Shown here piece by piece: positions 15,354-20,158 of a stretch of DNA of 64,000 bases. How positions within the stretch are numbered: position 1 is the stretch's first letter; every line of letters starts with the position of its first letter. The translations under genes were made by a program, and so were the position numbers. The DNA lies in contig NZ_CP155620.1 in NCBI RefSeq assembly GCF_040008265.1, positions 1,116,001-1,180,000 of the forward strand. Direction: 5' to 3'. This stretch comes from Campylobacter sp. CCS1377. GTDB taxonomy: Bacteria > Campylobacterota > Campylobacteria > Campylobacterales > Campylobacteraceae. The notes below the pieces were generated by a model that did no database searches, was not told where the DNA came from, and saw only the letters and a list, made by a program, of their open reading frames with translations.

Positions 15354-15373
15354 GCCCAAAAAACGGGCTTTTT
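15352..15373. terminator. bidirectional terminator between yggS-like gene and flaC
   Basis: AAGCCC / GGGCTT (15352-15357 with 15365-15370) encloses an A-rich loop and is followed by TTT on the plus strand and ATTTTT on the minus strand, so it can serve both converging genes. Confidence 0.75.
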
Positions 15374-16124
15374 AAAAATCCAATAAATTAGCAATTTTGC
15401 TTTGAAGTTGCATATTTGATTGAGCTAAGATAAAACTTGCTGCATTTTCTTTTAAATAGTTTGAATTTAAATCATTCATATTTTTTGCCATGTCGTTATT
15501 TAGCAAGTTATTTTCAGCTGCTTTGGTATTGATACTATTTTGCACGCTAGAATTAATGTTGGATGTTAGCACATTAATACCCCCACCAATCTCTCCTCTT
15601 AAAGCATTAACTTGATCTATAAATTGCGTAATGCTTTCTTGATTATTTATATCAAGTCCATCTGCAGACAAAGGATTTAGATTTGTCGTTTGAGTTCCAC
15701 TTCCTACAACGAAATTCATAGTCTGAAACACATTTTTTCCATTATAAGTTGCATTGTTAAAAGCATCATTAATAGACTCTTGAAGTCTTGTAGCTTCACT
15801 TTGTATCATACTTTTTTGATTATCATTTAAGGCTGCGTTATTCATTTTTACCGAAAGTTCATTTAGCCTATTGGCACTTTGGGAAATATTTGACAAACTT
15901 GCATCAGCAATTTGTAAAACACCGATTGCATCATAGGCATTTGCTACGCCTTGATCAATGGTGCTAGCTTGAGATCTTAAAAAATCTGCAATGCCTAAAT
16001 TCGCACTATCAACACCGCTAATAGCGCGCATAGCAGAAATATTTTCTAAAGCTTTTTCGCTAGACTTTTGTGCATTATTTAAATAATAATTTTGCTGCAT
16101 TGCTGTAGAGTTGTTAATTTTCAT
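15372..16124 (-). CDS. flaC: secreted flagellin-like protein FlaC
   Basis: A 250-residue flagellin homologue containing only the conserved D0/D1 regions: the N-terminal half includes SGVDSANLGIADFLRSQAST and DAIGVLQIADASLSNISQ, and the C-terminus ends in the LQSKIANLLDF helix. The hypervariable D2/D3 domains of FlaA/FlaB are absent, which is what defines FlaC. In C. jejuni FlaC is exported through the flagellar apparatus and released, not built into the filament. The ribosome site is AAAGGAGG. It sits beside a YggS-type gene, as in C. jejuni. Confidence 0.93.
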   Translation of the reverse strand: MKINNSTAMQQNYYLNNAQKSSEKALENISAMRAISGVDSANLGIADFLRSQASTIDQGVANAYDAIGVLQIADASLSNISQSANRLNELSVKMNNAALNDNQKSMIQSEATRLQESINDAFNNATYNGKNVFQTMNFVVGSGTQTTNLNPLSADGLDINNQESITQFIDQVNALRGEIGGGINVLTSNINSSVQNSINTKAAENNLLNNDMAKNMNDLNSNYLKENAASFILAQSNMQLQSKIANLLDF

Positions 16125-16158: not shown

Positions 16159-16626
16159 TTATATTTTTTTAGCTGTTTTAAAACTTAAGAAAAATAAAAA
16201 CGCTTGAGCCACAACCATGATTTTTATCACTACTTCGCTTGCCGAGTGAATACCTGCAAACTCGGCATTTTGTGTTGCAACTTCACCTAATTCCTGAGCT
16301 TTGACAATATAATCTGTAAAATAAAATACAAAAACCGCACTTAAAACCAAAATAATTAAGGCAAGTAAAATCTTTGAAATTCTCACACTAAAAGAACAAA
16401 GCTCTTTTGAAAATAAGGCAAAAATAGTATTAATCACACTCACGCCCAGCAAAATATAACCAAATTTAATAAAAATTTGTGTCATTAAAATACCGCTTTG
16501 AAACTGAGTTAAAACTCCTTCTCCCAAAAATTCTTGCGGATAAAAAATTACAGGTGCAACCATAATACCAACACAAAGTTCTATACCTATCATCATCGCT
16601 AATAATAATAAATTCACAGCTTTCAT
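16159..16626 (-). CDS. small integral membrane protein (DUF4149-like)
   Basis: A 155-residue protein with four predicted transmembrane helices, at residues about 5-28, 48-70, 82-105 and 128-150. The first helix region, with GIMVAPVIFYP, resembles DUF4149 / copper-resistance-D-like small membrane proteins; the charged C-terminus FKTAKKI would face the cytoplasm. No catalytic motif is visible and the function is unknown. It precedes flaC by 34 bp on the same strand, so readthrough into flaC is possible. Confidence 0.8.
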   Translation of the reverse strand: MKAVNLLLLAMMIGIELCVGIMVAPVIFYPQEFLGEGVLTQFQSGILMTQIFIKFGYILLGVSVINTIFALFSKELCSFSVRISKILLALIILVLSAVFVFYFTDYIVKAQELGEVATQNAEFAGIHSASEVVIKIMVVAQAFLFFLSFKTAKKI

Positions 16627-16714
16627 GATTTATTTCCTTTTTTATTTTAATTTTGGCAAAAAATTATAGCTAAAAAAGATAAAAAATATTTTTTAAAATA
16701 AAATTAAGTTTTAT

Positions 16715-16720
16715 TATATT
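16715..16720 (+). promoter_or_regulatory. possible -10 box of the metE leader transcript
   Basis: TATATT at 16715-16720, with an overlapping alternative TATAAC at 16723-16728, lies about 35 bp before the first leader ORF in an A/T-rich region. It is the only plausible sigma-70 box between the divergent membrane-protein gene and the leader. Confidence 0.4.
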
Positions 16721-16757
16721 AGTATAACCAAATCAATAAATTGTTAAAGGAGTTTTT

Positions 16758-16790
16758 ATGCTGATGCGTCATTTATATTTTATCACATAA
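16758..16790 (+). CDS. first leader ORF of metE, 10 residues
   Basis: ATG 16758 follows a perfect ribosome site (AAAGGAG, 16746-16752) and encodes MLMRHLYFIT before TAA. It starts with two Met codons in three. Being far too short for a protein and sitting in a biosynthetic leader with a good ribosome site, it is best read as a translated regulatory uORF. Its codons could sense Met supply, or it could deliver ribosomes to the second leader ORF 26 bp on. Confidence 0.5.
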   Translation: MLMRHLYFIT

Positions 16791-16816
16791 ATATCAAAAA
16801 CAAAGGAGAAAACACA

Positions 16817-16909
16817 ATGAACTTAAATCAACAAAAAACACAATCTTACAAAAATCAAAACATAAACATTCCATTCATTTCTTCTATTATGTGCCTAATG
16901 TGCATGTAA
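16817..16909 (+). CDS. second leader ORF of metE, 30 residues with Met/Cys-rich end
   Basis: ATG 16817 follows AAAGGAG (16802-16808). The 30-residue product is polar at first (NQQKTQSYKNQN) and ends ISSIMCLMCM: three Met and two Cys codons among the last six, directly before TAA. Clusters of the codons for the pathway's own product or precursor near the end of a leader peptide are the mark of ribosome-mediated attenuation. Methionine is the product of MetE and cysteine supplies its sulfur. A terminator-like hairpin follows at 16950-16992 and metE starts at 17032. Confidence 0.65.
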   Translation: MNLNQQKTQSYKNQNINIPFISSIMCLMCM

Positions 16910-16949
16910 TTTCTACTTTTTTATTTTTAAATCACATTGCTATTGTTGT

Positions 16950-16992
16950 AAAAATTTAGTCTCTGATTAAACTTAATCTCAGTCTAATTTTT
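16950..16992 (+). terminator. attenuator-like hairpin before metE
   Basis: An outer stem pairs 16950-16959 (AAAAATTTAG) with 16984-16992 (CTAATTTTT), with one bulged T. An inner stem pairs GATTA 16965-16969 with TAATC 16974-16978 and the flanking TC/GA bases, around an AACT loop. The hairpin runs into TTTTTATTTTTG, as an intrinsic terminator would. It begins 40 bp after the second leader ORF. Its left arm could instead pair with CTACTTTTTT at 16912-16921. All pairings were made by eye. Confidence 0.5.
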
Positions 16993-17031
16993 ATTTTTGT
17001 TTAATTTTTATTTAATTAAAAGGATTTTATT

Positions 17032-19308
17032 ATGAAAAATTCAGTTATTGGATATCCAAGAATAGGTGCTTTTCGAGAATTAAAATTTGAAGTTGAAAAG
17101 TATTTTTTAAAACAAAGCTCACAAGAAGAGCTTATCGCTTTAAGCAAGGATTTAAAAGAAAAACATTGGCAAGATCTAAAATCGGCAAATATTGATTTTA
17201 TACCTTGTAATGATTTTTCTTTTTATGACAACACACTCGATACTGCCGTGCTGTTTAATGTAGTTGCTCAACGATATAAGGCCTTAAAACTAAATCATTT
17301 AGATGAATATTTCGCGCAAGCTAGAGGCTATCAAGGAAAATTTGGCGATGAGAAAGCTTTGGCAATGAAAAAATGGTTTAACACAAATTACCATTACATC
17401 GAGCCAGAATGTGATGATGCAGAAGTTATTGATTTAGTTGGAGATAAAATTTTTAAGGATTTCATCGAAGCAAAAAATTTAAATATCAACCCAAAACCCG
17501 TAATTCATGGAATTTTTACTTTCTTTAAACTCATTCGTTTTAAAGATGAAGATACCAAACAAAAAGCTAAAGAAAAGCTACTTCAAGCTTACATAAAACT
17601 TTTAAATCGCTTCAATGATTTAGAGGCTACTTGGCTTAGTTTTGATGAACCTTGTTTGGTATTTGATTTAAACAAGCAAGAATTAAAACTTTTTAATGAT
17701 TTTTATCAAGAATTACTCAAACATAAAGGTGGGATTAAAATTCTTATTCAAAGTTATTTTGGTGATATAAGAGATGCTTATGAAAGTGTTTTAAAGCTTG
17801 ATATTGATGGTTTGGGGCTTGATTTTATCGAAGGAGATTATAATATAAATTTGCTAGAAAATTTTGGTTTTCATAGGAACAAAATTCTTTTTGCAGGAAT
17901 TATTAATGGTCGCAATATTTATAAAAATAATTATAAAAAAACCATTGATTTAATCCATAAAATCAAAAATTATGCTCCAAATATAGTCCTTAGTACAAGT
18001 TGTTCGCTTTTGCATGTCCCTTATAGTATACAAAATGAAAACAAACTGGATGAAAAATATCTCAATCATTTTGCTTTTGCTAAGGAAAAATTGCAAGAAT
18101 TAAATGAACTGAAAATATTATTAACTTCTAAAGATTTCAATAAAGAAAAATTTTTCATTCAAAATCAAATTTTACTTGCTAATAGCTTAAATAAAAACAA
18201 TCTCAAAGTTCAAGAAAGCATTAAAACTCTAAGCAAAGAAAAATGTATCAGAGAACCTGAATTTAAAGAAAGAAAAATTCTGCAGCAAAGTATATTAAAA
18301 CTTCCTATACTTCCAACAACCACCATAGGTTCTTTTCCACAAACCAAGGAAGTGCGTTCTAATCGTCTTGCTTTTAAACAAAATAAAATAAATATTGATA
18401 CTTATACAAGTTTTAATCGAAACAAAATTAAAGAATGTATTAAAATTCAAGAAGAAATAGGACTTGATGTTTTGGTGCATGGAGAATTTGAACGCAATGA
18501 TATGGTGGAATATTTTGGTGAGAATTTAGAAGGCTTTTTATTCACTCAAAATGCTTGGGTACAAAGTTATGGCACAAGGTGTGTAAAACCTCCTATTATT
18601 TGGGGTGATGTGAGTCGCAAAAAAACCATTACTGTAGAATATGCCAAATTCGCTCAAAGTCAAAGCCAAAAAATCGTCAAAGGAATGCTAACAGGACCAG
18701 TAACTATACTAAATTGGTCTTTTCCAAGAGAAGATATTAGTCTAAGAGAAAGTGCTTTGCAAATCGCATTAGCTATACAAGAAGAGGTTTTGGATCTTGA
18801 AAATGCAGGTATTAAAATCATACAAATTGATGAAGCGGCTTTAAGAGAAAAATTGCCTCTAAGAAAAAGTAAATGGCACACTTACTTAGAATGGGCAATT
18901 TTAGCTTTTAATGTGACTCATTATAAAGTAAAAGCCCAAACTCAAATTCATACACATATGTGTTATAGTGAATTTAGCGATATTATTAAAGAAATTAATG
19001 CAATGGATGCGGATGTGATTTCTTTCGAGGCCTCAAGATCAAATCTTGACTTGCTAAATGCACTAAAAGCAGTGAATTTCAAAACCGACATTGGACCTGG
19101 GGTTTATGATATCCATAGTCCAAGAATTCCAAGTATTGATGAATTAAAAAATGTGATAAAAAAAATCTTAAATAAATTTGAGAAAGAAAAAATTTGGATC
19201 AATCCTGATTGTGGTTTAAAAACAAGAAATTATGAAGAAGTAGTCGCTAGTCTTAAAAATTTAGTTCAAGCAAGTCTTGAGCTTAGAAAGGAGTTGCAAA
19301 ATGAATAA
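17032..19308 (+). CDS. metE: cobalamin-independent methionine synthase MetE
   Basis: A 758-residue protein, the full family length. MetE transfers the methyl group of 5-methyl-tetrahydrofolate triglutamate directly to homocysteine, without B12. The N-terminal half-barrel begins MKNSVIGYPRIGAFRELKFE. The C-terminal catalytic barrel carries TTTIGSFPQT near residue 425, the zinc ligands in HTHMCYSEF near 645 and Cys in NPDCGLKTR near 725, and the conserved QIDEAALREKLPL. metF overlaps its last codons, so the pair makes and uses methyl-folate. Expression is probably governed by the leader at 16715-16992. Confidence 0.97.
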   Translation: MKNSVIGYPRIGAFRELKFEVEKYFLKQSSQEELIALSKDLKEKHWQDLKSANIDFIPCNDFSFYDNTLDTAVLFNVVAQRYKALKLNHLDEYFAQARGYQGKFGDEKALAMKKWFNTNYHYIEPECDDAEVIDLVGDKIFKDFIEAKNLNINPKPVIHGIFTFFKLIRFKDEDTKQKAKEKLLQAYIKLLNRFNDLEATWLSFDEPCLVFDLNKQELKLFNDFYQELLKHKGGIKILIQSYFGDIRDAYESVLKLDIDGLGLDFIEGDYNINLLENFGFHRNKILFAGIINGRNIYKNNYKKTIDLIHKIKNYAPNIVLSTSCSLLHVPYSIQNENKLDEKYLNHFAFAKEKLQELNELKILLTSKDFNKEKFFIQNQILLANSLNKNNLKVQESIKTLSKEKCIREPEFKERKILQQSILKLPILPTTTIGSFPQTKEVRSNRLAFKQNKINIDTYTSFNRNKIKECIKIQEEIGLDVLVHGEFERNDMVEYFGENLEGFLFTQNAWVQSYGTRCVKPPIIWGDVSRKKTITVEYAKFAQSQSQKIVKGMLTGPVTILNWSFPREDISLRESALQIALAIQEEVLDLENAGIKIIQIDEAALREKLPLRKSKWHTYLEWAILAFNVTHYKVKAQTQIHTHMCYSEFSDIIKEINAMDADVISFEASRSNLDLLNALKAVNFKTDIGPGVYDIHSPRIPSIDELKNVIKKILNKFEKEKIWINPDCGLKTRNYEEVVASLKNLVQASLELRKELQNE

Positions 19309-20158
19309 AAACACTAGTTTTTCTTTCGAACTTTTCCCGCCAAGAGTCAATGAAGAACTTCGCAATATCGATGAAATTTTAGAAAATCTCAAGGACTTAA
19401 ACGCTGATTTTATCAGCGTTACCTTCGGAGCGGGAGGAAGTAAAAAATCAAATTTTACTTTGGATATAGCACAGCTAATAGAACAAAAATATCAAACCAA
19501 AAGCATAGTGCATCTTCCATGTATCCATTTTAGCAAAGAGGAAATTGCTAAATTTTTAACCCATTGCAAGGATAGGAATTTAAAAAATATTCTCGCACTA
19601 AGGGGTGACATGAGTAAAGATTTAAAAGCGAGTAAAGATTTTTCTTACGCTAGCGATTTGGTCGAATTCATTAAACAAAATGGAGATTTTAATATCTTTG
19701 GCGCTTGTTATCCAGAAACCCATAATGAATCTAAAAATTGCATTGAAGATATACATAATCTTAAAATAAAAGTTGATAAAGGTGCTGACAAGCTCATCAC
19801 TCAACTATTTTTTGATAACAATGATTTTTATAATTTCAAACAAAACTGTGCATTATCTGGAATTAAAGCACCAATTTATGCAGGCATTATGCCAATTACC
19901 AATAAAAGGCAAATTCTAAAAATCACTCAACTTTGTGGAGCAAAACTGCCACCAAAATTCTTAAAAATTCTAGAAAAATACAAACACAACGACAAAGCTT
20001 TAGCAGATGCTGGGATTGCCTATGCAGTTGATCAAATTGTGGATTTAATTACAAACGGAGTAGATGGAATTCATCTTTACATCATGAATAAAGCCTATGT
20101 TGCCAGAAGGATTTATGAAGCAACATATTCTTTGTTCTATGATAAAATCGGTGCTTAG
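19301..20158 (+). CDS. metF: 5,10-methylenetetrahydrofolate reductase MetF
   Basis: A 285-residue FAD-dependent TIM-barrel enzyme that supplies methyl-tetrahydrofolate to MetE. SFELFPPR near the start, the VTFGAGGS segment near residue 40, ILALRGD near 90 and the FGACYPETHNE region are the family marks. A longer frame begins at 19277, but ATG 19301 has a well-placed AAAGGAG ribosome site and fits the family N-terminus, so I choose it. It overlaps metE by 8 bp. Its stop overlaps the stop of the converging amidohydrolase gene. Confidence 0.94.
   Translation: MNKNTSFSFELFPPRVNEELRNIDEILENLKDLNADFISVTFGAGGSKKSNFTLDIAQLIEQKYQTKSIVHLPCIHFSKEEIAKFLTHCKDRNLKNILALRGDMSKDLKASKDFSYASDLVEFIKQNGDFNIFGACYPETHNESKNCIEDIHNLKIKVDKGADKLITQLFFDNNDFYNFKQNCALSGIKAPIYAGIMPITNKRQILKITQLCGAKLPPKFLKILEKYKHNDKALADAGIAYAVDQIVDLITNGVDGIHLYIMNKAYVARRIYEATYSLFYDKIGA

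Follow-up and report, generated by a model that had tools for sequence, protein, structure and literature searches.

Upstream of the metE-metF operon of Campylobacter sp. CCS1377, in a 64,000 nt stretch of the genome (hereafter, the window), lies a 405 bp leader that is real, conserved and, to judge from sequence comparison, most likely a control element based on a Met/Cys leader peptide. It extends from the start of a divergent gene at 16626 to the start of metE at 17032 (ORF listing) and contains two putative upstream ORFs, uORF1 and uORF2. An earlier note had described these as two tiny ORFs of 10 and 30 codons, each behind a perfect AAAGGAG Shine-Dalgarno (SD) sequence, the second ending in ISSIMCLMCM directly before its stop codon, and the sequence, coordinates and genes all proved correct. 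The features of the leader and operon are as follows (positions in the window).

16702..20143, strand not assigned: presence/absence segment comprising leader, metE and metF, cleanly missing in the sister genome G029
16709..16729, + strand: A/T-rich stretch with a -10-like TATATT at 16715-16720, likely the promoter region of the leader (consensus scan; chance-level on its own)
16746..16752, + strand: SD of uORF1, AAAGGAG (sequence)
16758..16790, + strand: putative uORF1, MLMRHLYFIT, 10 codons, ATG at 16758, stop codon ending at 16790
16802..16808, + strand: SD of uORF2, AAAGGAG (sequence)
16817..16909, + strand: putative uORF2, Met/Cys leader peptide MNLNQQKTQSYKNQNINIPFISSIMCLMCM followed by a stop codon, 30 codons, ATG at 16817, stop codon at 16907-16909 (sequence, shuffles, position and core motif in relatives)
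16886..16910, + strand: hairpin spanning the Met/Cys codons of uORF2 and its stop codon, with a U-rich stretch behind (-7.3 kcal/mol, z -3.5)
16889..16906, + strand: presumed sensed codons M-C-L-M-C-M, ATGTGCCTAATGTGCATG (sequence)
16948..16994, + strand: A/U-rich hairpin with U-rich tail, possible weak terminator (z -3.4 to -3.9)
17032..19308, + strand: metE, B12-independent methionine synthase (TIGR01371, 1044.6 bits)
19301..20158, + strand: metF, methylenetetrahydrofolate reductase (TIGR00676, 329 bits; the ORF listing starts at TTG 19277)

We consider it rather probable that uORF2 is translated as a leader peptide, uORF1 being another Met-rich leader, and that metE-metF expression is thereby set according to the supply of charged Met-tRNA and probably Cys-tRNA. 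When Met or Cys is short, the ribosome would stall on the M-C-L-M-C-M codons, prevent the hairpin at 16886-16910, where uORF2 ends, from closing and alter downstream events, and metE-metF would be expressed; with a good supply the ribosome would finish uORF2, the hairpin would form, and expression would stay low. The output step in the window may consist in premature termination at the A/U-rich hairpins, or may act on the stability of the transcript or on its translation. If true, conserved leader peptides with Met/Cys codons would provide the direct methionine sensor still missing from the picture of Campylobacter. C. jejuni is without MetJ, MetR, SahR and SamR, and also without SAM or SAH riboswitches (PMC11774046). 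At gathering scores the window matched no Rfam family, whether SAM, SAH, T-box, cobalamin or any other, and at the metE loci of the window and ten relatives no SAM, SAH, cobalamin or T-box family was found at E values up to 1; a riboswitch or other known RNA in the metE leader was ruled out on the lack of an Rfam match.

A chance origin of the uORFs was ruled out by 4000 dinucleotide shuffles of the 405 bp leader, in which two SD-preceded small ORFs arose four times and an SD-preceded small ORF with at least three Met codons among its last eight never arose. The window has 44 SD-preceded small ORFs of 5-40 codons; uORF2 ranks first among them for Met/Cys (3 Met and 2 Cys, the runner-up having 2 Met), and it is the single occurrence of M-C-x-M-C-coding DNA in the 64 kb, both strands included. 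No DNA resembling uORF2 was found elsewhere in the genus. The leader of this biosynthetic operon carries, as expected of an attenuator, a short SD-preceded ORF in which codons for the amino acid that the pathway makes form a run close to the end (IMCLMCM before the stop codon). In this respect uORF2 resembles the classical trp, his and leu attenuators (LeuL, TrpL), whose peptides end in codons for the amino acid of the pathway; those systems, however, alternate between terminator and antiterminator structures, and none were found in the leader of the window.

The sample of the genus comprised 49 genomes, 23 of them with metE, and in each of these the sequence upstream was examined as far as the start of the metE operon. 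The earlier note had proposed, as a test able to refute its reading, looking for the Met/Cys run upstream of metE in other Campylobacter. The run is conserved: a short SD-preceded uORF containing Met-Cys stands at the operon head in 22 of the 23 metE-bearing genomes, as well as in a second genus, so the leader-peptide reading is well supported. G044 is the only metE-bearing genome of the genus without a detected Met/Cys leader. All 24 leader peptides besides that of the window contain MC, with MCxMC in 14 and MCxM in 6, and with the window included M-C-x-M-C occurs in 15 of 25 leaders. Examples are MKLMCQMCSI, MKLMCEMRSI, MMKLMCQMHTI, MRNLVQFFIMCQMCVMRS, MMQMCLMCSMSVMQS and MQDFAMYIMCDMC; in some peptides one Cys is missing or has Y or R in its place (MQLMYEMCSI, FIMRRNMC, MKLMCQIYVI). 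The Cys codons recur in unrelated RNA contexts. In many genomes the leader precedes genes for a Cj1199-like oxygenase and a Cj1200-like MetQ, upstream of metE and directly behind luxS. In G031 and G032 the space from the Met/Cys leader to metE is occupied by genes that, judged by eye, resemble flavin monooxygenases acting on sulphonates or sulphones, and G044 has genes of a similar kind.

The two-uORF layout of the window recurs in two genomes of another genus (G131 and G132; MetE 65% identical), where MLMRSLILHKT and then MNNFSNLLNTYKIFFIMRRLAF precede metE, the second peptide of G131 beginning MNNFSNILNT. Common to these and the window is an MLMR-type peptide followed by one of the MN...FIMRR type, with a start-to-start spacing of 57 nt in the second genus and 59 nt in the window. 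A search for an SD followed by ATGCTNATGCG gave five matches in 153 genomes of the family, of which three (window, G131 and G132) lie before metE; the other two (L241, L243) were rejected as lying inside unrelated genes. Since a reversed control pattern gave four matches, the number of matches alone proves nothing, but their positions do. Within the species of the window, the sister genome G029 has flanks 98-99.7% identical to those of segment 16702-20143 and lacks both leader and metEF, which therefore travel or are lost together; the A/T-rich stretch at 16709-16729 lies just inside the missing segment. Adjoining the metE segment is a gene for a 250 aa flagellin-like protein, probably FlaC-like (15372-16124, - strand).

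A hairpin spanning the I-M codons of uORF2 and its stop codon is also found at the same place, with different sequence, in G131, G132 and G125, where its z-score against shuffles is mild (-1.6 to -2.0, versus -3.5 in the window), and in the second genus no U-run follows it. Hairpin 16948-16994 stays formed at all modelled ribosome positions, and no competing ribosome-dependent antiterminator was found in the leader of the window. The predicted cost of opening the metE SD is 2.4-3.2 kcal/mol at every modelled ribosome position on uORF2, an effect matched or exceeded in 40 of 40 shuffles, and ranges from 1.8 to 3.7 kcal/mol for positions on uORF1. Unmasking of the metE SD by ribosomes on uORF1 or uORF2 was dropped as a candidate, folding having shown no clear effect, as was ribosome-dependent switching of the A/U-rich hairpin, for which folding showed none; a Rho-type C-rich region after uORF2 was also dropped (11 C in 122 nt). 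The genome has no LeuL-type leader before leuA that might serve as a local template. The claim of the earlier note that the leader is likely an attenuator sensing Met and perhaps Cys holds as far as the conserved Met/Cys uORFs go, while no ribosome-dependent RNA switch could be computed in the leader of the window; in other words, the sensor half of the proposed element is well supported by comparison, and the output half is a matter of modelling in which no switch appeared.

Such a switch was computed in relatives. The metE leader RNA of the sister species is different from that of the window and strongly conserved; a motif search found it in 15 genomes, and a covariance model built in this analysis (R1) matched 18 of the 153 family genomes, all in this genus. 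A hidden copy in the genome of the window was ruled out, no R1 match being present. The sister alignments support five helices, some of them mutually exclusive. H1, spanning the uORF codons, and H6, a helix of 13 bp, are paired in 96.8% and 97.2% of cells, respectively, and were given independently by RNAalifold. H2 is invariant and hence without covariation evidence; H4 is 95.2% paired, with compensatory change in 7 double-changed cells (0 of 500 shuffles); and H5, which covers the first gene's SD, reaches 82% pairing and shows no excess covariation. These helices suggest a relay, probably in the following order: a ribosome stalled on the Met codons would open H1, H2 would then replace H6, H4 would replace H5, and the SD of the first gene would be freed. 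The ribosome was modelled as a 29 nt footprint held unpaired in the folded leader, and the cost of opening the SD of the first gene was computed. With the ribosome on the L-M-C codons, the predicted cost was about 1-4 kcal/mol lower than with the ribosome at the stop codon in seven leaders (G003b, G004, G005, G006, G015, G016 and G019). Shuffles of the uORF-SD region reached the observed drop in 0 of 120 cases for both G006 and G016, 0 of 80 for both G019 and G003b, and 1 of 80 for G015. Eight sister metE leaders, roughly half (G007, G008, G010, G012, G033, G036, G038 and G045), gave no computed switch. In G010 and G036 a small ORF, of 71 or 45 aa, closes immediately ahead of metE and has its start covered by the predicted SD-masking hairpin, which hints at translational coupling.

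The genome of the window carries a leader with a computed switch before metQ, outside the window (G000:C1, approximately 1103267-1103377; L167:1768-1788 and 1878), with the uORF MMSQMR and three alternative helices. Opening of the metQ SD is predicted to cost 0.8 kcal/mol with a ribosome on the Met codons, 5.7 with one at the stop codon and 6.1 in the free leader, and no switch as large was seen in 300 shuffles. The switch was computed in 16 of 18 metQ leaders of the genus, where G000 and G029, identical in sequence, are counted as two, and the exceptions are G031 and G032. No metQ leader has Cys codons. Since folding predicts that the SD is freed when a ribosome sits on the Met codons, translational attenuation is likelier than a terminator for the sister metE leaders and for this genome's metQ leader. 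All metQ leaders share an almost invariant GCAAGCA(C) between their helices, although it is predicted to be unpaired (alignment A4, columns 103-110).

Few of the attenuators described so far rely on Met codons. The earlier note had called Met attenuation by a peptide unusual. In Campylobacter a Met leader peptide is not entirely new, two having been proposed in C. jejuni: MetL, before metBA (PMC3847290), and CJsORF19, before metQ (PMC11955535). MetL resembles uORF2 as a short SD-preceded ORF with three Met codons ahead of methionine genes and a proposed role in attenuation, and it has a Ribo-seq initiation signal (PMC11955535). It differs in belonging to another operon (cj1727c-1726c), in its length of 20 aa and in the proposal of transcription termination, and the authors, who do not mention metE, saw it in no species beyond C. 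jejuni, C. coli and C. doylei (PMC3847290). CJsORF19 (MMYQMR, upstream of Cj0772c) is, like uORF2, a tiny Met-rich leader before a methionine gene, its homologue here being MMSQMR, and was detected by Ribo-seq; however, it precedes a transporter gene and not metE, has no Cys codons, and comes with no RNA switch in the accessible part of that report (PMC11955535). The leader peptides of Mycobacterium cys operons also have sulphur amino-acid codons near the stop codon and no obvious terminator, but theirs is a run of Cys only, in cys operons of actinobacteria (PMC1262725). In the literature searched, which was mostly non-subscription, neither the metE leaders nor their RNA switch appears to have been described, and no description of a leader mixing Met and Cys codons was found. 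A 2009 microarray study of a luxS mutant of C. jejuni, using defined medium, found Cj1199 up 6.2-fold and Cj1200 14.8-fold, which fits a leader responsive to sulphur amino-acid stress, although metF fell, and did not rise, in the same mutant (PMC2772989).

How the uORFs might act on metE in the window can be explained in several ways. Transcription attenuation is possible, at somewhat less than even chances: hairpin 16886-16910, hairpin 16948-16994 or both, with the U-rich tail, would terminate transcription unless a stalled ribosome opened the first. Both hairpins beat their shuffles and have U-rich stretches behind them, and the LeuL, TrpL and MetL RNAs of C. jejuni extend only a little past the leader stop codon (PMC3847290). 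However, the window has 188 sites at which a T-rich tract follows a hairpin with a folding energy of -7 kcal/mol or lower, no antiterminator competes in a ribosome-dependent way, and the U-run is missing in relatives. It is unlikely that the window's leader follows the mechanism of the sister species and of metQ, with a stalled ribosome unmasking the metE SD via folds that nearest-neighbour folding misses (pseudoknots, protein help). The switch computed in the seven sister metE leaders and in nearly all metQ leaders, that of this genome included, and the compensatory change in H4 speak for such a mechanism, but the metE SD of the window is open in every modelled state and the sister RNA element is absent from this genome.

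Two further explanations dispense with the sensing of charged tRNA. The uORFs could be of an ordinary kind that senses nothing and boosts metE translation through ribosome loading or reinitiation, which we regard as improbable. The leader is AU-rich with open SD sites, and such a role has been proposed for leader genes in general (PMC4833913, accessible part), but this would leave unexplained why Met-Cys codons keep recurring before metE and Met codons before metQ, and why SD unmasking depends on codon position. Very improbable, in our estimate, is a nascent M-C-x-M-C peptide that itself senses a metal, redox state or a sulphur metabolite by arrest and not by codon hunger. Met/Cys pairs are typical metal ligands and the motif is conserved across unlike RNA contexts, yet a Cys is missing or replaced in the peptides listed above, and Cys is absent from the metQ leaders. 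Control by a Met/Cys leader peptide is the best explanation because of the shuffles (0/4000), the 22 of 23 genomes, the layout and hairpin in a second genus, the metQ switch, the Ribo-seq detection of CJsORF19, the joint loss of leader and metEF, and the lack of known regulators in C. jejuni. Counted against it were the missing switch in the window, the ribosome-independent hairpin, the lack of a U-run in the second genus and the fall of metF in the luxS mutant.

On a wider scale, we tentatively propose, at close to even chances, that in Campylobacter a regulon of short Met/Cys-codon leader peptides governing the core methionine genes (metE-metF, Cj1199/Cj1200-like genes and metQ) replaces repressors and SAM riboswitches, reads both sulphur amino acids through M-C-x-M-C, and mostly unmasks SDs by a relay of helices. 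In other genera (L236, L232, L238 and L240), different tiny uORFs precede metE, and by eye these have a Pro-Met pair in common (MSCPMVDLYR, MPCPMPKIR, MNHPMLKGSKIF and MKYPMLARIKS).
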